The notes beneath the pieces are model-generated. The model was not told the origin of the DNA and made no database searches. It worked only from the letters and a program-made list of their open reading frames with translations. A program made the position numbers and the translations under genes. 63,187 bases of DNA from Chloroflexota bacterium. GTDB taxonomy: Bacteria; Chloroflexota; Limnocylindria; Limnocylindrales; CSP1-4. The stretch covers positions 1 to 63,187 of the forward strand of contig JAJZRQ010000008.1 in NCBI GenBank assembly GCA_021802585.1. The letters run 5' to 3'. This document shows, in pieces, positions 43,064 through 53,593 of this stretch (positions are counted from its first letter, which is position 1; every line of letters begins with the position of its first letter).

Positions 43064-43609
43064 ATGATTTGCATGGAGCGAACGATCTTGCCCCAACCCG
43101 ACCCCGCGCCGCGCCCGGTCCCCGAGACCCGCCGCGCGACGATCGACCGGATCGCGCGGCTGACCGACGACCTCGTGCACCGCGTGGCGACGGCCCACGC
43201 CCGGGAGTTCGTCGAGATCCGGGCGACGATGTCGCAGGCGAAGGTTCTCCACCTCGTGAACGCCGACCCGGGCGTCCGGATGTCCGAGCTCGCGGGCCGC
43301 CTCGGCGTGTCGCTCTCCACGCTGAGCGGCGTCGTCGACCGCATGGTCGAGCAGGGCTACCTCCGCCGCAGCGATGATCCCGCCGACCGGCGCCACGTCG
43401 TCCTCCGCCTCACGGAGCTCGGCGACGACCAGCTCCTCGAGCTGCGCACCCTCAGCGAGCGCCACTTCGCGCCCATCCTCGCCGAGATCGACGACGCCGG
43501 CCTGGCGGTCGTCGAGCAGGCCTTCGGCATCCTCGCCGCCGCGGCGGCCGCCGCGAGCGCGCGCGCGGCCGCATCCCCGACTCCGTCGAAGGAAGGATCT
43601 CGCCCATGA
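43064..43609 (+). CDS. MarR-family transcriptional regulator
   Basis: A 181-residue winged-helix regulator. The DNA-binding part reads MSELAGRLGVSLSTLSGVVDRMVEQGYLRRSDDPADRRHVVLRLTELG, with the wing residues DPADRR typical of MarR. Its stop overlaps the start of the RND permease gene (ATGA), so it almost certainly controls the pump, with a drug or metabolite as ligand. ATG 43073 is an alternative start three codons later. The C-terminus is Ala-rich. Confidence 0.88.
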   Translation: MICMERTILPQPDPAPRPVPETRRATIDRIARLTDDLVHRVATAHAREFVEIRATMSQAKVLHLVNADPGVRMSELAGRLGVSLSTLSGVVDRMVEQGYLRRSDDPADRRHVVLRLTELGDDQLLELRTLSERHFAPILAEIDDAGLAVVEQAFGILAAAAAAASARAAASPTPSKEGSRP

Positions 43610-46600
43610 GTCGCCTCACCGAGCTCTCCGTCGCGAAGCGGAGCGTCACGCTCCTCCTCGCCTTCGGGCTGTTCTTCGCCGGCGTCTCGGCGTGGGGAAG
43701 CCTGAAGCAGGAGCTCCTCCCCGACATCGACTTCCCGGTCATCACGGTCATCGCGCCGTATCCGGGCGTGGGCGCCGCCGACGTCGCGGAACAGGTCACG
43801 AAGCCGATCGAGCGGTCGGTCGCGAGCGTGCCGGGCCTGAAGTCGCTCTCGTCGTCGTCGGCGAACTCGATCGCGATCGTCGTCGCCCAGTTCGCCTTCG
43901 GCACCAACGTCAAGGAGACGCGGGCGACGATCGAGCAGGGTCTCCCGGCAGCCGGGCTCCCGGCGGGCGTCTCCCCGCAGGTCTCCGCGCTGAACATCAA
44001 CGCCGCACCGGTGATCATCGCGTCGGTCGCCGGGACGAGCCAGGACGGTCTCGATGCGGCGGCGCAGGTCGCGCGCTCGCAGGTCGTGCCCGCGCTCCAG
44101 GGCCTCGACGGCGTCGCGACGGTCGACCTCACCGGCGGGCTCGAGACCCGGGTTCTCGTGACCCTCGACCCGGCGAAGCTCGCCGCGAGCCGGGTCTCGG
44201 TCGGCCAGGTGACGGGGGTCCTCGCCGCGAACAACCTCACCGTGCCGTCGGGCCAGATCACGACGGATGGCACGAACATCCCGGTCTCGACGATCGGCCG
44301 GATCGCCTCGCTCGACGAGATCCGGAACCTCGTCGTCGGGGTGGAGTTGCCGGCGGGCGCGGGCGCCGGCGCGGGCGGGGGCGCGGCCCCCGGCGCGGGC
44401 GCCGGCGCGGCCCCCGGCGCGGGCACGGGCACGACCGTGCCGCCGACGCCGACCCCGGTCCTCCTCCGTGATGTCGCGACGGTCGAGGAGGCCGGCGTTC
44501 CGACCACCGGCTTCGCCCGGACCGATGGCGTCCCGTCGCTCACGCTCACCGTCACGAAGGCGTCGACGGCGAACACCGTCGAGGTGGCCGACGCGGTGAT
44601 CGCGAAGCTCGACGAGATCGGGGCGGCGAACGCCTCGACCGTGAGGGTCACGATCATCTCGGACCTCTCGACGTTCATCAAGGAGTCTCGCGACGGGCTC
44701 CTCCGCGAAGGCGGCCTCGGCGCCCTCTTCGCGATCCTCACGATCTTCCTGTTCCTCTTCAGCCTCCGTTCGACGCTCGTCGCGGCCGTGAGCATCCCCC
44801 TCTCCGTCCTCACCGCCCTCGTGGTCATGCAGATCGCGGGGGTCACGATCAACGTCATGACGCTCGGCGGGCTCGCCGTCGCCGTCGGCCGGGTCGTCGA
44901 CGACGCGATCGTCGTCCTCGAGAACATCTACCGCCACCGCGCACTCGGGGAGGATCGCCGGAGCGCCGTCCTCCGCGGCCCGCGCGAGGTCGCGGGGGCG
45001 ATCACCTCGGCGACCCTCACGACGGTGGCCGTCTTCCTGCCCCTCGGCCTCGTCGGCGGGATCGTGAGCCAGCTCTTCCTGCCGTTCGCCCTCACGGTCA
45101 CCTTCGCCCTCCTCGCCTCCCTCGTCGTCGCCCTCACGGTCGTCCCGGTCCTCGCCTACCTCTTCATCGGCCGGGTGAAGCTCAACGTCGACGAGGACGG
45201 CGAGCCGCGGAGCTCCCTATGGATTCGCGCTTACACCCCGACGATCCGCCTCGCGCTCCGGAGCCGGGTCACGAAGTGGGGCGTCCTCCTCGTGGCGACG
45301 ATCCTCTTCGGCGGCTCGATGGCGATCGCGCCGCTCCTCCCGACGCAGTTCATCAACGCCGGCTCGGAGAAGCTCCTTCAGGTCACGGTCGCGCCCCCTG
45401 CCGGGACGAGCTCCGCTGCGGTCCTCGACCGAGCCGTTGCCGCGGAGACGATCCTCCTGGCCGACCCGCAGGTCGAGCACGTGCAGACGAGCGTCCCCGG
45501 CGAGGGCGACACCGGCTTCGGCACGATCACCTCCGCCCTCTCCGGGCGGCCGGCGAACAGCGCGACGCTCACCGTCCGGCTGGCGAACGACGTCGACCTC
45601 ACCGCCTCCGCCCAGAAGCTCTCGGCCGACCTCGCGCCGGTCAAGGTCGACGGCTACGACGTCGCCGTGGCCCAGGCGGCCGGGTTCACCTCGAACAGCC
45701 TGAGCGTCGTCGTCAGCTCCGACGACCCGGCTGCCATGGCCGCGGGCGCCGACGCGGTCCTCGCCGCCCTCCGCGGCGATGCCGACCTCCTCAACCTGAA
45801 GTCGGACCTCTCGAAAGGGACGCCCGAGGTCGAGGTCGTCGTCGACCCGAACCGGGCGATCGGCGCCGGGCTCACGGCCGCGCAGGTCGCCGGGGAGATC
45901 CGGACGACGCTCGTGGGCCAGACGGCGACGAGCGTCGAGCTCGCCGCCGGGGGCGCGCCGGTGCCGGTCTTCGTGCAGGTCGATCCGACCCTGGTCACGA
46001 GCGTCGAGGCGCTCCGCCGGCTGCCCGTCGGGACCGCGACGACGGTCCCGCTCGGGACGATCGCGGCGGTCGAGGAAGTCGCCGCCCAGGGGAGCATCAC
46101 CCGGGTCGACCAGGCGCCGGCGGCCACGATCTCCGCCGAGATCGCGAGCAAGGACACCGGCGCGGTCTCGCGCACGGTCCAGCAGACGGTCGACCGCCTC
46201 GTCGCCGACGGGACGATCCCGGCGGGGGTCACGGTCCGGCTCACCGGCGTCACCCAGCAGCAGAACGAGGCCTTCGGCAGCCTCTTCACGTCGATGGCCG
46301 TCGCCATCCTCCTCGTCTACGTGATGATGGTCCTGACCTTCAACTCGCTCGTCACCCCGTTCGTCATCCTCTTCAGCCTGCCGCTCGCGACGATCGGCGC
46401 CTTCCCGGCGCTTCTCGTCTCCGGCCGGCCGATCGGCGTGAGCGCCCTCATCGGGTTCCTCATGCTCATCGGGATCGTCGTGACGAATGCGATCGTCCTC
46501 CTCGACCTCGTCGAGCGGCTGCGGGCGGACGGCCACTCGACGACCGAGGCCCTCGTGGAGGGCGGCCGGACCCGCGTCCGGCCGATCCTCATGACGGCGA

Positions 46601-46842
46601 TCGCGACGATCCTCGCCCTCATCCCGCTCGCGGCGGGCCTCTCGGAGGGCTCGATCATCGCGGCGGAGCTCGGCACCGTCGTCATCGGCGGGCTCTTCAG
46701 CTCGACGTTCCTCACGCTCCTCGTCATCCCGGTCCTCTACTCGCTCGTGGACGGCGGCCGATCCGGGCTCGCCCGGCGCCTCCGCGGGTCCGGCGAGGGC
46801 GGGACGGCGCCGGCCGCCACGGGCGAGGCTCCGGCCGGCTGA
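43606..46842 (+). CDS. RND-family efflux transporter permease (AcrB/MdtB-like)
   Basis: A 1078-residue inner-membrane pump with twelve predicted helices. The first helix (KRSVTLLLAFGLFFAGVSAWGSL) is followed by QELLPDIDFPVITVIAPYPGV. The second cluster is FLFLFSLRSTLVAAVSIPLSVLTALVVMQIAGVTINVMTLGGLAVAVGRVVDDAIVVLENI, with the proton-relay Asp pair (VVDDAIV). The late cluster has PIGVSALIGFLMLIGIVVTNAIVLLD. A Gly/Ala/Pro repeat of about 40 residues (near 250-285) is inserted in the first extracytoplasmic loop. No membrane-fusion or outer-membrane gene adjoins it, which fits a monoderm cell. Confidence 0.9.
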   Translation: MSRLTELSVAKRSVTLLLAFGLFFAGVSAWGSLKQELLPDIDFPVITVIAPYPGVGAADVAEQVTKPIERSVASVPGLKSLSSSSANSIAIVVAQFAFGTNVKETRATIEQGLPAAGLPAGVSPQVSALNINAAPVIIASVAGTSQDGLDAAAQVARSQVVPALQGLDGVATVDLTGGLETRVLVTLDPAKLAASRVSVGQVTGVLAANNLTVPSGQITTDGTNIPVSTIGRIASLDEIRNLVVGVELPAGAGAGAGGGAAPGAGAGAAPGAGTGTTVPPTPTPVLLRDVATVEEAGVPTTGFARTDGVPSLTLTVTKASTANTVEVADAVIAKLDEIGAANASTVRVTIISDLSTFIKESRDGLLREGGLGALFAILTIFLFLFSLRSTLVAAVSIPLSVLTALVVMQIAGVTINVMTLGGLAVAVGRVVDDAIVVLENIYRHRALGEDRRSAVLRGPREVAGAITSATLTTVAVFLPLGLVGGIVSQLFLPFALTVTFALLASLVVALTVVPVLAYLFIGRVKLNVDEDGEPRSSLWIRAYTPTIRLALRSRVTKWGVLLVATILFGGSMAIAPLLPTQFINAGSEKLLQVTVAPPAGTSSAAVLDRAVAAETILLADPQVEHVQTSVPGEGDTGFGTITSALSGRPANSATLTVRLANDVDLTASAQKLSADLAPVKVDGYDVAVAQAAGFTSNSLSVVVSSDDPAAMAAGADAVLAALRGDADLLNLKSDLSKGTPEVEVVVDPNRAIGAGLTAAQVAGEIRTTLVGQTATSVELAAGGAPVPVFVQVDPTLVTSVEALRRLPVGTATTVPLGTIAAVEEVAAQGSITRVDQAPAATISAEIASKDTGAVSRTVQQTVDRLVADGTIPAGVTVRLTGVTQQQNEAFGSLFTSMAVAILLVYVMMVLTFNSLVTPFVILFSLPLATIGAFPALLVSGRPIGVSALIGFLMLIGIVVTNAIVLLDLVERLRADGHSTTEALVEGGRTRVRPILMTAIATILALIPLAAGLSEGSIIAAELGTVVIGGLFSSTFLTLLVIPVLYSLVDGGRSGLARRLRGSGEGGTAPAATGEAPAG

Positions 46843-46904: not shown

Positions 46905-48395
46905 CTACGGCCCGGCGGTGCCGACCTCGCTGATCGCCCGCAGCCCGAGAGCCTGGGCCGAGGCGACGAAGTGGTAGTTCACGCCCTCGGCAATCGGGAA
47001 CGTCGCCACCTGGACCGGTGCCCCGTCGAGGAGGGCCGCCTCGATCGAGGGCGCCACGTGCAGCTGCCCGGTCGGGCTGCCGGCATCCCAGTACTGGAGG
47101 AACGGCGTGGCGCCGTCGGGGGCCCTGAAGATCACCTGCATGAGGTCGCCGCCGATCGGGTTGGCGTAGAGGAGGTCGACGAGCGGGACCTTCAGCGGCG
47201 GCAGCGTGGGGGCGGCGGCCGACGGCAGGACGCCGATGATCCCGGCGGGGCACCAGGCCGCCGGCGGGCTCGTCACGCAGGCCGTGAGGATCGGGTTCAG
47301 GACGACGCCGCCCTTGAGGACGTCGCGCCAGTGTGGGAACCACCAGTCGGGGGGCGTGGCGGGCGGCGTGTCGCCGGACGGCGGGATCGACGCCGGCGCC
47401 GCCGGGGTCGGGAGCGGGGGCGACGTGACCGCCGGGGAGGCCGAGGCGCCCGGGCTCGTCGACGGGCCCGGGGACGCCGAGGGTCCCGGCGACGTGCCGG
47501 GCTCCGCGCCGGCACCGGGGAAGGCGCCTGCCGGGAGGGCAGGCGGGTTCGCCGGGGTCGTCCCGCCGGGGAAGGCCCACGCCGTGTACGCTGCGCCGCC
47601 CCCGAAGTCGAGCGCCGCCGCCTCGACGACGTCGGCCGGCCACCACGCGCCGCGGTAGCCGGCCCACGTCGGGCCGAGCGGGTCGATGACGTAGTAGCCG
47701 GCCGGCCCGTCGATCCCCGCCGCGCGGAACCCGTCGAGGTAGACCGCGTGCCCGCCGGTGAAGTCGGCCTGGAGCCGCAGCGAGGCGGGGATCCGCTCGT
47801 AGCTGACCTGGACGACGGCCCCGGCGCCAGCGTAGAGGAGCGCGCGGAGTTGGAGCGGGGTGATCGCCCCGAGGTTGAACGAGACGCTCCAGCGCCCGAT
47901 CGCGGCCTCCAGGTCGCTCAGCGAGGTGCCGCCCTCCTGGTCCGCCTGCTGGGCCCGCAGCTGGGACCCCGTGGCGACGATCCCGAACCCGAGGCGGGCG
48001 AGCATCGCTCCCGATGCCATCGTGCAGTTCGCGCTCGCGAGGGGCCCGCCGTCGAACTGGCTGATCGCGGGGACCCGTGGATGGCCGCCGGGAAGGAGCC
48101 ACCCCGCGCCCGCCCCGCTCCCGCCGGGGATGGTGCCCGGCTCGACGAAGGCGACGAGCTGGAGGGTCGAGCTGTCGGGCAGCGCCGTCAGCGCGACCGG
48201 GGTGGCGTCGGGGACGCTCGTGAGGCCGAAGGGGACGACGTCGTCGCCCGTGTCGGCCGTCAGCTCGAAGGTCGTCGAGGGCGCCGGCAGCAGGCTCGAC
48301 GCCGGCGGAGCGGTCGCCGCGCCCACGGCGAGCGCGCCGCCGAGGCCGATGACGGCGGCGAGGGCGAAGCGGGTGACGAGCCCGAGGATCGGCAT
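46905..48395 (-). CDS. Secreted C39/papain-like cysteine peptidase domain protein
   Basis: A 496-residue exported protein. The signal peptide is residues 1-30. The middle domain (about 105-270) shows a papain-type triad: Cys in LASANCTMASGAMLARLG, His in FTGGHAVYLDGFRA and Asp in GYYVIDPLGPTWAGY. This is the peptidase_C39_2 layout. A 60-residue Pro/Ser/Thr/Gly linker follows, then a C-terminal domain of about 150 residues (from WWFPHWRDVL) that I do not recognise. It lies 6 nt after the SH3/Ig-like protein gene, so the two form an operon of extracellular proteins. Confidence 0.7.
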   Translation of the reverse strand: MPILGLVTRFALAAVIGLGGALAVGAATAPPASSLLPAPSTTFELTADTGDDVVPFGLTSVPDATPVALTALPDSSTLQLVAFVEPGTIPGGSGAGAGWLLPGGHPRVPAISQFDGGPLASANCTMASGAMLARLGFGIVATGSQLRAQQADQEGGTSLSDLEAAIGRWSVSFNLGAITPLQLRALLYAGAGAVVQVSYERIPASLRLQADFTGGHAVYLDGFRAAGIDGPAGYYVIDPLGPTWAGYRGAWWPADVVEAAALDFGGGAAYTAWAFPGGTTPANPPALPAGAFPGAGAEPGTSPGPSASPGPSTSPGASASPAVTSPPLPTPAAPASIPPSGDTPPATPPDWWFPHWRDVLKGGVVLNPILTACVTSPPAAWCPAGIIGVLPSAAAPTLPPLKVPLVDLLYANPIGGDLMQVIFRAPDGATPFLQYWDAGSPTGQLHVAPSIEAALLDGAPVQVATFPIAEGVNYHFVASAQALGLRAISEVGTAGP

Positions 48396-48401
48396 CTCAG
48401 G

Positions 48402-50018
48402 TCACCCCTTGCACGAGGAGTAGACGGAGAACTGGGCCGTCGTGGTGCCGCTCCGGCTCGTCCCGCCGTAGACGTCCGTGCTCGTCGCGGTGAGCGAGAT
48501 CGAGTACAGGCCGGCGACCCACCCGACGGTCGGGATCGACGCCAGGAACGCGGTGCCCTTCTGGAACGTGGCCACGGTCTCCCCGGAGTAGCTCACGAAC
48601 CCACGAAGGTTGCTCGCCTTCCAGGACAGGACGACGCGGAGGCGCGAGCTGTCGGAGTAGCCCGCGAGCCGGTCGTCCGGGTCGGCGGCGTTGAGGGGGA
48701 CGGCGAGCGCGCTGGGCACGCACGCCGGGTCGGCGTAGACGGAGCGCGTGACGCCGGCGAAGTCGAAGCTCGCCGGGCTGTCGCAGTAGACGACCGTGAT
48801 CGACCCCACCGCCGATTTCCTCGCCTTCCCCTTGCCGTCGGTTGCGACGGCGTACCAGCTGATCGTGCCGGGCCGGGTGATGTCGTCGACCGAGGCGACG
48901 GTGTTGATGAAGCTGTACCAGGTGCTCCCGTCGGCGCTGAAGGGCCGGGACTCGTACGTCGTCGAGCCGGGACGCCGCCAGAAGAGCTGGACCGACGTGA
49001 CGCCGTCCGGGTCGGTCGCCTGGGCGGTCAGCTCCGAGAGCGTCGAGCCACCGCATCCGGCGTTCGACGGGTCGGCCACGATCGTCGTGGGCGAAGCCTG
49101 GAGGAGGGTGAACGTGGGACCGCTGTTCGCGCAGACCTTGACCGTCACCGCGAGCGTGCCGGAGGCCGGCGAACGTGTCGACTTCGGGCGGGCGTTCGCG
49201 TCGCGCGCCACGACGTAGTAGGCGAGCCGCCCGGCGCCCGTGATCCCGTCGGCCTTCGTGTCGAGCGTGGCCGCATAGCGGCCGCCGGAGAGCGTCATCG
49301 GCCGCGCGGCGTAGTTCGTCGCGCCCGGCTTCTTCCAGTACAGCGTCACGCTCGCGATGCCGTCCGCGTCCGAGGCGGTCACCGAGATCGTGACCGCCTT
49401 GCGGGCCGTCGGGCAGTACGAGCCCTGGTCGTACGAGACGGTCGTCGTATCGGCCCGCAGGTCGGAGACCGTCGGCGCCGCGTTGGGGATCAGGGTGGGG
49501 GAGGGGGTGGGGCGCGCCGTCGCGGTGGGTGTCGGGCCCGGGCTGGGGGTCGGGCTCGCGGTCACGACCGGAGTCGGCGCGGCGGTCGGCGTCGGCTCCT
49601 CGGTCGGGCGCGGGGTGGCCGTCGGCGGCGCCGCGCACGCCGCGACCGGGAGGCTCGCCGCGTCGCCGTCGAGTCGCAGGACGCCGGCCCGCGTCCAGGC
49701 GCGCTCGAGGCCCGGCCCCGGCCAGTAGAGCTGGAGCCAGCCGCCGTCGGCCGAGCGGCCGGTGACGAGGACCTTCTGGTCGGCCGCGACCGTCCCGAGC
49801 ACCGGTCCCTGGTCGGGGCACGGGACGACCTGGAGGCCCGGGCCGTTCGCCGCGCCGGGGGGCCCGCCCGCGGTCGCCGTGTGGCCCCCGAAGCGGACGG
49901 CGCCGCTCGCGACGAGGACGCCGCCCCCGACGGCGCCCGCGAGGAGGCCGGTCCCGAGCACGGCGAGGCTCTTGCCCGCGAACAGGCCGCCTCCGCCCAG
50001 CGCCCCGAGTCCTGCCAT
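48402..50018 (-). CDS. Exported multi-domain protein with SH3-like and Ig-like repeats
   Basis: A 538-residue protein. A hydrophobic N-terminal helix (SLAVLGTGLLAGAVGGGVLVASGAV) may anchor it. A domain of about 70 residues resembles a bacterial SH3 (LGTVAADQKVLVTGRSADGGWLQLYW). A linker of about 60 residues, rich in Pro and Thr with Pxx-type repeats, follows. Three similar repeats of about 90 residues come next, with DADGIASVTLYWKKPGATNY and DPDGVTSVQLFWRRPGSTTY as matching segments, and a related C-terminal repeat. Each carries paired cysteines. It probably acts at the cell surface or wall. GGAGGGG precedes the ATG, and a TAGACT box lies at 50056-50061. Confidence 0.65.
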   Translation of the reverse strand: MAGLGALGGGGLFAGKSLAVLGTGLLAGAVGGGVLVASGAVRFGGHTATAGGPPGAANGPGLQVVPCPDQGPVLGTVAADQKVLVTGRSADGGWLQLYWPGPGLERAWTRAGVLRLDGDAASLPVAACAAPPTATPRPTEEPTPTAAPTPVVTASPTPSPGPTPTATARPTPSPTLIPNAAPTVSDLRADTTTVSYDQGSYCPTARKAVTISVTASDADGIASVTLYWKKPGATNYAARPMTLSGGRYAATLDTKADGITGAGRLAYYVVARDANARPKSTRSPASGTLAVTVKVCANSGPTFTLLQASPTTIVADPSNAGCGGSTLSELTAQATDPDGVTSVQLFWRRPGSTTYESRPFSADGSTWYSFINTVASVDDITRPGTISWYAVATDGKGKARKSAVGSITVVYCDSPASFDFAGVTRSVYADPACVPSALAVPLNAADPDDRLAGYSDSSRLRVVLSWKASNLRGFVSYSGETVATFQKGTAFLASIPTVGWVAGLYSISLTATSTDVYGGTSRSGTTTAQFSVYSSCKG

Positions 50019-50111
50019 CGCCCCTCCGCGCCGCCGCCCCGGCCGTGACGGCGGGAGTCTAGCCCGCCGGGAAGCGGCCGGGAAGAGGGACGTTCGGGCA
50101 GACGTGCACGG

Positions 50112-50155
50112 TTGACGGGATCGTGCCGATATCCGACAATCCAACTCGGAATTCG
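50112..50155 (+). promoter_or_regulatory. Upstream sufB promoter P1 with operator-like palindrome
   Basis: TTGACG (50112-50117) and GACAAT (50135-50140) are 17 nt apart. Overlapping the -10 box is TCCGA-N9-TCGGA, an inverted repeat that would let a repressor block the polymerase. This is the only clear sigma70-type pair of this quality with its duplicate in the window. Confidence 0.7.
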
Positions 50156-50263
50156 GCCGGGCCGGGCGTCCTCACCGGGCAGCGTCCCGGGCGGTCCCAT
50201 CCGGCAGCGTCCCACCGGCCGAACTCCGCCGACGCGCGGCGGTCCGCGGCGCGACGCACGCGG

Positions 50264-50307
50264 TTGACGCGCGAGGCACTAAATCCGATAATCCAACTCG
50301 GAATTCG
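50264..50307 (+). promoter_or_regulatory. Downstream sufB promoter P2 with the same operator-like palindrome
   Basis: TTGACG (50264-50269) and GATAAT (50287-50292) are again 17 nt apart, and TCCGA-N9-TCGGA overlaps the -10 in the same register. P2 is closer to consensus than P1. An Rrf2-type (IscR/SufR-like) or Fur-type repressor is a reasonable guess. Confidence 0.72.
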
Positions 50308-50446
50308 GCCGGGTCCGGACGGCCGCCTCGGGTCTCCCGCCCGAGGTGCCCATCCGGCAGCGTCCCACCGGCCGAACTCCCGTCGTCCGCCGTCACCGCG
50401 GCGCCGGCCTCGCTGGCGCCGACGCCTCCCGCCACGAGGAGCGTCC

Positions 50447-51853
50447 ATGACCGCCACCCGCGGGGAGATCGTCTCCCAGGAGTACAAGTACGGGTTCCAC
50501 GACGAGGTCGCGTACCTCGCGGAGACGAAGCGCGGGCTGACGCGGGCCACGGTGGAGGAGATCAGCGCGATCAAGGAGGAGCCGGAGTGGATGCTCCAGT
50601 TCCGCCTCCGCGCGTACGAGCACTTCCTCAGGCGCTCGATGCCGACGTGGGTGCCCGAGAGCGTCCAGCGGATCGACTTCGACCGGATCGTCTACTACCG
50701 GAAGCCGTCCGAGCGCGAGGAGAAGTCGTGGGACGACGTCCCCGACCAGATCAAGCAGACGTTCGAGAAGCTGGGGATCCCCGAGGCCGAGCGCAAGTTC
50801 CTCGCGGGCGTGGGGGCCCAGTACGACTCGGAGGTCGTCTACCACTCCGTCCGCGAGGAGCTGGCGAAGATCGGGGTCGTCTTCATGGGGATGGACCAGG
50901 GGCTCCGCGAGTACCCCGACCTCGTGAGGAAGTACTTCGCGACCGTCGTCCCGCCGGAGGACAACAAGTTCGCGGCGCTCAACAGCGCGGTCTGGTCGGG
51001 CGGCTCCTTCGTCTACGTCCCAAAGGGCGTCGAGGTCCCGCTCCCCCTCCAGGCCTACTTCCGGATCAACGGCGAGAACACGGGGCAGTTCGAGCGGACC
51101 CTCATCCTCGCGGACGAGGGCTCGAAGGTCCACTACATCGAGGGGTGTACGGCTCCCATCTACACCACCGACGCCCTCCACGCGGCGGTCGTCGAGGTCA
51201 TCGCCCTCCCGGGCGCCCAGATCCGCTATACGACGATCCAGAACTGGAGCCGCGACGTCTTCAACCTCGTGACGAAGCGGGCCCACGCCCACGCCCGCTC
51301 CACGGTCGAGTGGGTCGACGCGAACACGGGCTCCCGCGCGACCGTGAAGTACCCCGCGATCTACCTCCGCGGCGAGGGGGCGACCGCCGAGGTCATCAGC
51401 GTCGCCTTCGCCGGCCACGGCCAGCACCAGGACACCGGGGCGAAGGCGGTCCACCTCGCCCCGAACACGCGGAGCCGGATCGTCTCGAAGTCGGTGAGCA
51501 AGGACGGCGGGCGGGGGACGTACCGCGGCACCCTCAAGGTGGCGCCCGGCGCGACCGGGGTCGTGGCGAGCGTCCGCTGCGACGCCCTCCTCCTCGACGA
51601 GGCGAGCCGCTCCGACACGTACCCCTACATCGACGTCCAGGAGGACGACACGACGATGACCCACGAGGCCACCGTCGGGAAGGTCTCCGCGGACCAGATC
51701 TTCTACCTCATGAGCCGCGGGCTCACGGAGAACGAGGCCACGAACCTCGTCGTGCAGGGCTTCCTCGAGGTCTTCACGAAGGAGCTCCCGATGGAGTACG
51801 CGATCGAGTTCAACCGCCTCGTCAAGCTCGAGATGGAGGGGTCGCTCGGATGA
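50447..51853 (+). CDS. sufB: Fe-S cluster assembly scaffold protein SufB
   Basis: A 468-residue SufB of normal length. Conserved blocks include QEYKYGFHDEV at the N-terminus, FAALNSAVWSGGSFVYVPKGVEVPLPLQAYFRIN, IEGCTAPIYTTDALHAAVVEV, QNWSRDVFNLVTKRA and SDTYPYIDVQEDDTTMTHEATVGKVSADQIFYLMSRG. It scaffolds [Fe-S] cluster assembly in the SufBCD complex in the cytoplasm. GAGGAG precedes the ATG. Its stop overlaps the sufD start. It is driven by the duplicated promoter upstream. Confidence 0.96.
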   Translation: MTATRGEIVSQEYKYGFHDEVAYLAETKRGLTRATVEEISAIKEEPEWMLQFRLRAYEHFLRRSMPTWVPESVQRIDFDRIVYYRKPSEREEKSWDDVPDQIKQTFEKLGIPEAERKFLAGVGAQYDSEVVYHSVREELAKIGVVFMGMDQGLREYPDLVRKYFATVVPPEDNKFAALNSAVWSGGSFVYVPKGVEVPLPLQAYFRINGENTGQFERTLILADEGSKVHYIEGCTAPIYTTDALHAAVVEVIALPGAQIRYTTIQNWSRDVFNLVTKRAHAHARSTVEWVDANTGSRATVKYPAIYLRGEGATAEVISVAFAGHGQHQDTGAKAVHLAPNTRSRIVSKSVSKDGGRGTYRGTLKVAPGATGVVASVRCDALLLDEASRSDTYPYIDVQEDDTTMTHEATVGKVSADQIFYLMSRGLTENEATNLVVQGFLEVFTKELPMEYAIEFNRLVKLEMEGSLG

Positions 51854-53271
51854 CGACCCCCCCGGAGGCGCCCGCCGGCTCGCCGGCCCCGGCCCCCGCC
51901 GCGCCCCGTGCACGCCGCGCGCCGGCCGACCTCCCCTTCGCCTTCGCCGACGCGGCCCTCGCCGCGACGCTCGGCGCGGAGCGCGACGAGCCGGCCTGGC
52001 TCCGCGACGATCGCCGCGCCGCGGCCGAGGCGTTCGCACGCCTCCCCGTGGAATCGAACGAGCTCTACACGACGTACGTCGACTTCCGCGGCGCCGACCT
52101 CTCCGCCGCGCGGCCCCACGTCCGCACGGCGACCGCGCCGGCGGTCGCGGGCGAGCCCCCGGCGGACGCCGACGGGATCATCGAGCTCCGCGAGGACGCC
52201 GTCCTCCGGCTCGCCCTCGCCCCCGGGCTTGCCGAGCGTGGCGTCGTCCTCGAGACGCTCGGCGAGGCGCTGGCGCGCGGTGCGGCCGGCGTCCGGGAGG
52301 CCCTCACTGGGACGGCGCTCCCCGCCGACGAGAAGCTCGCCTGGCTCTCCCGCGGCTTCTGGAGCCAGGGGATCCACCTCCACGTCCCGGCCGGCGTCCG
52401 GCTCGAGCGGCCGATCGTCCTCCGCTGGGCCGCCGGCGTGCCGGAGCGGGCCCTCCTCACACGGACCCTCATCCGCCTCGACGAGGGCGCCGAGGCGTCG
52501 CTCGTCGAGGAGCTCGTCGCGGCCGGCCCGGCGATCGGCTGCGCCGCGGGCGAGCCTGTCCCGCAGGCGCTGTTCGGCGGGACGAGCGAGATCGCCCTCG
52601 GGCCGGGGGCCGTCCTCCGGTTCGCCTCGGTCCAGGATCTGCCCGGCGGCACGACCGCCCTCCAGCAGCGCACGGCGCGGATCGGCGCGGGGGCCTCGCT
52701 CCGCTTCGCGATCGCCCAGCTCGGCGGGCGGGTCGTCCGCTCGCGGATCGACAACCGCCTCGAGGGCGACGGCAGCGAGGTGGAGCAGGTCGAGATCGTC
52801 TTCGGTGGCCGCGACCAGCTCTTCGACCTCACCGCGTACACCCGCCACGTGGGGCGGGACACGACCGGGAACCTCCTCTCGAAGGCCGTCCTCCAGCACG
52901 GGGCTCGGGCCTACATCAAGGGCCTCATCTCGATCGAGAAGACGGCCCGCGGGACCGATAGCTTCCTCGGGGAGTTCGGGATGCTCCTCGACAAGCAGAG
53001 CCGCTCGGTGACGATCCCGAGCCTCGAGATCGACCAGCCGGACTGCCGCCGGGCGGCCCACAGCTCGTCCGTCGGCCCGATCGACCCGGCCCAGCTGTTC
53101 TACCTCGAGAGCCGCGGGATCACCCCGGACGAGGCCCGCAAGTTCATCACCCTCGGCTTCCTCGAGCCCGTCGTCGCGCGCGTGCCGCTCGAATCCGAGC
53201 AGGAGCGCCTCTGGGCGATCCTCGAGGCGAAGTGGGCGGACTCGCTCGAGTCGGCGGCACCGGCCGCCTGA
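51850..53271 (+). CDS. sufD: Fe-S cluster assembly protein SufD
   Basis: A 473-residue SufD. The N-terminus is a Pro/Ala-rich tail of about 25 residues, followed by a helical region. The beta-helix core includes FWSQGIHLHVPAGVRLERPIVLRW, GGRDQLFDLTAYTRHVGRDTTGNLLSKAVLQHGARAYIKGLI and CRRAAHSSSVGPIDPAQLFYLESRGITPDEARKFITLGFLEPV. It pairs with SufB and with the ATPase SufC. sufC, sufS and sufU are not in the window, so the set is split. Confidence 0.94.
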   Translation: MTTPPEAPAGSPAPAPAAPRARRAPADLPFAFADAALAATLGAERDEPAWLRDDRRAAAEAFARLPVESNELYTTYVDFRGADLSAARPHVRTATAPAVAGEPPADADGIIELREDAVLRLALAPGLAERGVVLETLGEALARGAAGVREALTGTALPADEKLAWLSRGFWSQGIHLHVPAGVRLERPIVLRWAAGVPERALLTRTLIRLDEGAEASLVEELVAAGPAIGCAAGEPVPQALFGGTSEIALGPGAVLRFASVQDLPGGTTALQQRTARIGAGASLRFAIAQLGGRVVRSRIDNRLEGDGSEVEQVEIVFGGRDQLFDLTAYTRHVGRDTTGNLLSKAVLQHGARAYIKGLISIEKTARGTDSFLGEFGMLLDKQSRSVTIPSLEIDQPDCRRAAHSSSVGPIDPAQLFYLESRGITPDEARKFITLGFLEPVVARVPLESEQERLWAILEAKWADSLESAAPAA

Positions 53272-53275
53272 CGTC

Positions 53276-53593
53276 GTGGCGCGGCGGATCGACGTCGGCC
53301 CCCTCGCCGACCTCGCCGAGGGGACGATGCGGATGACCTGGGTCGACGGGACCGAGCCGATCCTCCTCGTGAACGTCGGCGGCACGGTCCGCGCCGTCCA
53401 GGGCATCTGCAGCCACGAGTACTTCGAGCTGGACCGCGGCTTCCTGACCGCGGGAACGCTCACCTGCGCCCTCCACCTCTCGCGGTTCGATCTCGCCACG
53501 GGCGACCCCCTCGACCCGCCGGCCGACGAGCCGCTCGCCGTCTACCCCGTCGCCGTCGAGGACGGCCGGATCATCGTCGACTGGCCAGGCTGA
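53276..53593 (+). CDS. Rieske [2Fe-2S] ferredoxin
   Basis: A 105-residue soluble Rieske domain. Cluster ligands are CSH (CxH) in VQGICSHEYFELDRG and CALH (CxxH) in LTCALHLSRFDLATG. It has a GTG start 4 nt after sufD. Rieske ferredoxins in suf operons are common in Gram-positive-type clusters and probably supply electrons for assembly. Alternatively it serves an oxygenase. It is the last gene of the unit. Confidence 0.9.
   Translation: MARRIDVGPLADLAEGTMRMTWVDGTEPILLVNVGGTVRAVQGICSHEYFELDRGFLTAGTLTCALHLSRFDLATGDPLDPPADEPLAVYPVAVEDGRIIVDWPG

Follow-up and report, generated by a model that had tools for sequence, protein, structure and literature searches.

A tandemly duplicated promoter-operator-leader cassette upstream of sufB in a Chloroflexota genome, and its candidate IscR-like Rrf2 repressor

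The window, i.e., the whole 63,187-nucleotide stretch of DNA analysed here, carries a sufB-sufD operon on its forward strand. The sufB gene (50447–51853; Pfam SUFBD_core, 289 bits) is followed by sufD (51850–53271; SUFBD_core, 181 bits), which overlaps the sufB stop codon (ATGA), and by a gene for a Rieske-type [2Fe-2S] ferredoxin (53276–53593, also forward; Pfam Rieske). The spacing of the genes suggests that the last is co-transcribed, which would probably make it the operon's third gene. A Shine-Dalgarno-like GAGGAG (50436–50441, forward strand) lies 5 nt before the sufB ATG. Two minus-strand genes (46905–50018), one of which matches the Ig-like Big_7, sit between sufB and an RND-type transporter gene recognised by eye at 43606–46842; in several relatives, what directly precedes the suf promoter resembles the end of an RND-type transporter gene.

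Upstream of sufB is a tandem direct repeat of two ∼127-bp copies, at 50101–50227 and 50253–50380, with an offset of 152/153 bp. Its first part (50101–50166 against 50253–50318, offset 152) has 77% identity between the copies and its second (50159–50227 against 50312–50380, offset 153) has 75%. The original prediction had described ∼152 bp as repeated in tandem; the tandem repeat is there, but 152 bp is the offset, made up of a ∼127-bp copy and a 25-bp spacer. On comparing the repeats, each copy was resolved into a cassette on the forward strand, comprising a promoter, an operator and a predicted leader hairpin (P1, O1 and hairpin 1 in copy 1; P2, O2 and hairpin 2 in copy 2). A consensus promoter scan of the region found two promoters, compared with 0.0 ± 0.1 in the shuffled region: P1, TTGACG-N17-GACAAT at 50112–50140, and P2, TTGACG-N17-GATAAT at 50264–50292, both forward. 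The -10 of P1 is also found in two congeners (G002 and G005), while that of P2 is the commonest across the family. The operators, which have no assigned strand, are O1, ATATCCGACAATCCAACTCGGAATT (50129–50153), and O2, AAATCCGATAATCCAACTCGGAATT (50281–50305), with exact TCCGA-N9-TCGGA cores at 50132–50150 and 50284–50302, respectively. Each overlaps the -10 and the predicted start site of its promoter, and the proposed layout of TTGACG-N17-GAYAAT with the inverted repeat over the -10 was thereby borne out for both copies.

The further proposal that the functional blocks are kept identical while the remainder has diverged also agrees with the alignment. Among clustered mismatches, the two copies share an identical run of 24 nt, covering the operator and a leader arm, and another of 28 nt, covering a second block; when the positions of the mismatches between the copies were permuted 20,000 times, two identical runs that long never arose. 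Although the window genome is in 141 contigs, it is scarcely credible that the duplication is an assembly artefact of a fragmented draft, given that roughly one position in four differs between the copies where misassembly would yield near-identical ones, and that they lie inside a 63-kb contig, each with an intact promoter and operator.

The second block had been described as a 30-bp shared element ∼60 nt downstream of each -10, falling in the leader and perhaps acting as an additional control site. It begins 57–59 nt after the -10, lies in the leader and is indeed conserved between the copies; rather than a separate site, it supplies a predicted hairpin with its 3′ arm. It was also rejected as a further operator, as it is no palindrome on its own and pairs with the operator flank. 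Hairpin 1 (50148–50227, forward strand; arms 50148–50160 and 50215–50227) and hairpin 2 (50300–50380, forward strand; arms 50300–50312 and 50368–50380) each enclose an inner stem, and these inner stems differ in sequence, yet both are predicted to pair. The arms are GGAATTCGGCCGG and CCGGCCGAACTCC, with one A·C mismatch, the 5′ arm being the right flank of the operator. Predicted fold z-scores were -2.1 for copy 1, -4.4 for copy 2, -3.3 for G005 and -4.2 for G002, and in G002 two pairs of the hairpin are changed on both sides (C-G to A-U and G-C to C-G). These compensatory changes and the re-paired inner stems are suggestive of a real leader hairpin, across four sequences. A leader structure common to the whole family found no support, as the mean z-score over 30 leaders was -0.6 and strong values occurred only in the genus; the hairpin is therefore to be regarded as a genus-level feature. 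No Rfam cis-regulatory RNA matched at E ≤ 1 within 49900–50700, and a scan of the region for an intrinsic terminator or attenuator found none, with the Shine-Dalgarno-like sequence lying outside both hairpins. It is doubtful, though conceivable, that the hairpin provides a second, RNA-level control of suf, as a protein- or cluster-responsive element or a switch of 5′-end stability, such that a dual-level cassette has been duplicated. If that were true, a single DNA segment would serve as promoter, operator and RNA arm.

The whole window genome (G000; 2.65 Mb, 141 contigs) was scanned for the operator. Exact TCCGA-N9-TCGGA occurs in five places. When extended to the 25-bp motif AWTYCCGA-N9-TCGGRAWT, four sites were found at zero to one mismatch, none at two and a background level at three. 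The four sites are the two at sufB, one before an rrf2-sufC-sufS operon (G000:C42:1825-1849) and one before a gene for an FTR1 iron permease (G000:C116:21325-21349), after which come cupredoxin and ferritin-like genes. The genome-wide search that had been proposed, including the neighbourhood of Rrf2 genes, thus returned a site at an rrf2 gene, and the rrf2 and FTR1 sites directly follow a TTGAC(C/G)-type promoter, as at sufB. One exact site, on contig C30, was dismissed as chance, being within an ABC ATPase gene and without AT flanks. On contig C116 (L020 3537-6304), a divergent DtxR/FeoA-domain gene and the FTR1-cupredoxin-ferritin-like cluster have one common operator region, and dual iron control of the two is possible.

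The operator is conserved among relatives. A single copy is present 5′ of sufB at the same -10 position in 35 of the 36 relatives from the order, and exactly one precedes sufB in each of the 37 named loci from GTDB, which belong to MAGs of Chloroflexi, Candidatus Limnocylindrales and the like; the two sets partly overlap and together provide 64 distinct operator regions, which rules out a chance inverted repeat. The upstream regions of the relatives' sufB genes carry AATYCCGATAATNNNNNTCGGRATT, in which the -10 GATAAT is embedded. Within the window genome's own family, TTGACG usually lies 17 nt 5′ of this -10. The order relative without a full operator is G009, where the left half-site has been lost. 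Upstream of sufB in that genome (G009:C7, L058), ACTCGGAATT is kept and CGCGTTGACGGT is present in two copies, a minor duplication of the -35 region that arose independently. Further operator sites were found 5′ of sufU (G001, G002, G005, G008, G020 and G024), at a FeS_assembly_P (SufT-like) gene in G012, at an FTR1-like gene in G013, and 5′ of a gene for an ABC solute-binding protein in G022 that looks to be of the iron type. In line with the original prediction, the inverted repeat is a conserved operator: it accompanies an Rrf2 regulator gene and recurs both at orthologous suf promoters and at further Fe-S and iron genes.

Two perfect operators precede open reading frames of other kinds. 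One (G011:C24:35717-35741, L275) is ∼14 nt before a frame that by eye resembles an RNA polymerase sigma factor and, if real, would extend the regulon to a sigma factor in that species. The other (G006:C81:58763-58787, L286) is ∼60 nt before a frame that by eye resembles an aldehyde dehydrogenase, which is not an obvious Fe-S target.

As a feature of the family, the duplication has so far found no support in the comparison with sister genomes. No second copy of the cassette was found at sufB in the 36 order relatives or the 37 named loci, leaving the window genome as the only one with two; the only two congeners in which the region 5′ of sufB is assembled (G002 and G005) are both single-copy.

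The gene preceded by the operator on contig C42 encodes a protein with an Rrf2 domain (PF02082, 103 bits against a cut-off of 30) that matches the solved structures of IscR and CymR by sequence. It is linked to Fe-S cluster assembly, as rrf2-sufC-sufS in the window genome and by linkage to sufC in relatives, whose Rrf2 genes are of two kinds, those linked to sufC and paralogues without that link. The operator stands before all 27 of the sufC-linked genes (24 with the strict motif and three with a relaxed motif), and in promoter context before none of the 20 unlinked paralogues, where there was one weak match with two mismatches and without AT flanks. Furthermore, three cysteines are invariant in the 27 sufC-linked proteins, spaced C-x10-C-x5-C in that of the window genome. 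With the operator also lying 5′ of the regulator's own gene, both at G000:C42:1825-1849 and in 27/27 linked rrf2 genes, the best reading is that an autoregulated, IscR-like repressor controls a suf and iron regulon.

The operator might instead be read by a DtxR-like iron repressor encoded beside FTR1, as the site there has FTR1 on one side and the divergent DtxR/FeoA-domain gene on the other. However, the operator tracks the sufC-linked rrf2 in 27 of 27 cases, and it is not confined to genomes with a DtxR-type gene: five genomes of 88–95% completeness without a PF02742 match (G007, G011, G012, G022 and G033) keep it at sufB, and G007, G012, G022 and G033 also keep it at rrf2. The motif is unlike DtxR/IdeR boxes. 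We consider a DtxR-like reader quite improbable.

Comparison with known systems favours the Rrf2 protein. A 19-bp palindrome of 5-N9-5 layout is described as canonical for Rrf2 operators (PMC9218516), and this is likewise the layout here. Against the Type-1 motif of Pseudomonas aeruginosa IscR (PMC6599224), the operator matches 15.8 of 19 specified positions, compared with 9.9 ± 1.9 for shuffles. The two systems also share an Rrf2 protein with a cluster site beside cluster-assembly genes, autoregulation, and a site of ∼25 bp with AT-rich ends; moreover, the P. aeruginosa isc promoter carries two IscR sites, a precedent for two per promoter (PMC6599224). Unlike that system, the regulator here belongs to an rrf2-sufCS operon and has the C-x10-C-x5-C arrangement, and the whole promoter and leader are doubled rather than the binding site alone. 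The closest solved sequence to the Rrf2 protein is IscR of Thermincola potens (PDB 4cic; E = 4e-23), by sequence alignment only.

In Myxococcus xanthus, RisR is an Rrf2 repressor of both suf and isc operons, with palindromic sites that extend over the -10 at isc and over both the -35 and the -10 at suf (PMC9973013). The Rrf2 factor and the palindrome over the -10 are as found here, whereas RisR recognises the motif T(t/g)GAC-N7-GTCC(t/a) and the portion of that account available does not describe a tandem promoter duplication. Cluster-loaded IscR represses in Rhodobacter sphaeroides (PMC4618611), where an Rrf2 repressor joins Fe-S assembly with iron uptake and several promoters drive the isc-suf operon (PMC4618611, PMC6956336), as here. 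The portions of these accounts available do not describe the promoters as tandem copies, and the R. sphaeroides protein has a single-cysteine cluster site, as opposed to the three cysteines here. The E. coli-type IscR activates suf via another type of site (PMC9973013), and the sign of regulation was for that reason deduced here from the overlap with the -10. Repression is the natural reading of an operator that covers both the -10 and the predicted start.

On the basis of the sequence, its conservation, the gene linkage and the cysteines, we consider it very probable that the sufB-sufD-Rieske operon is read from a tandemly doubled promoter-operator-leader cassette, the operators of which are bound by the sufC-linked, IscR-like repressor Rrf2 (G000:C42). 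As regards binding, cluster sensing and the direction of regulation, we infer that each operator would be a binding site for this protein, with its putative three-cysteine cluster site. The cluster-loaded dimer would sit over the -10 and the start site at each of P1, P2, its own rrf2-sufCS promoter and that of the FTR1 iron permease. When clusters or iron become scarce, apo-Rrf2 would leave and all of the target promoters would be induced. The function of the hairpin with which the leaders begin is likewise a matter of interpretation; it probably protects the 5′ end of the mRNA.

The effect of the duplication can be reasoned from its arrangement. Doubling of the cassette in this lineage would have created two independently repressed promoters, and since transcripts from P1 also cross O2, repression may stay tight while induced output can rise. 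Higher induced output with repression kept would be the likeliest gain, more so than the steeper repression of the original prediction, in which the two operators would act jointly through looping or cooperative binding. Joint action would accord with the presence of two intact operators and with P. aeruginosa, where both IscR sites of the isc promoter are needed for full repression (PMC6599224). Looping is nonetheless disfavoured by the centre-to-centre spacing of 152 bp, or ∼14.5 helical turns, which leaves the two sites out of phase by half a turn. Each operator by itself already overlies its promoter, and the relatives manage with one. Steeper repression through joint action therefore seems to us rather unlikely.

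Neutrality of the duplication is possible and has a better claim, although we still hold it to be the less probable outcome: Rrf2 control would be real, the copies young or homogenised, and the second promoter would add little. The restriction of the duplication to one genome fits with this, as do derived bases common to both operators (e.g., CCAAC), which hint at a recent origin or conversion. Against it, the copies are more diverged from each other (74% identity) than copy 1 is from G005 (82%; copy 2 against G005, 77%), and the operator and hairpin arms fall in long identical runs while the inner stem differs yet still pairs. The informative sites among the four sequences split 3/4/3, a pattern that leaves room for neutrality as it has no power to date the duplication.

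The preferred reading, control of a doubled cassette by the sufC-linked Rrf2 protein, is well supported as a system of a known kind, namely suf under an IscR-like Rrf2 regulator. The cassette duplication, found in one genome, is lineage-specific, and nothing here is categorically new. A literature search on Rrf2 or suf regulation in Chloroflexi or Limnocylindrales returned nothing relevant. For Limnocylindrales-type Chloroflexota, the analysis provides a sequence-defined Fe-S and iron regulon, in which the operator is clean and one gene stands out as the candidate for the regulator. Furthermore, the window genome and its single-copy congeners amount to a natural experiment of one cassette versus two, in which output may be set against sharpness of response.
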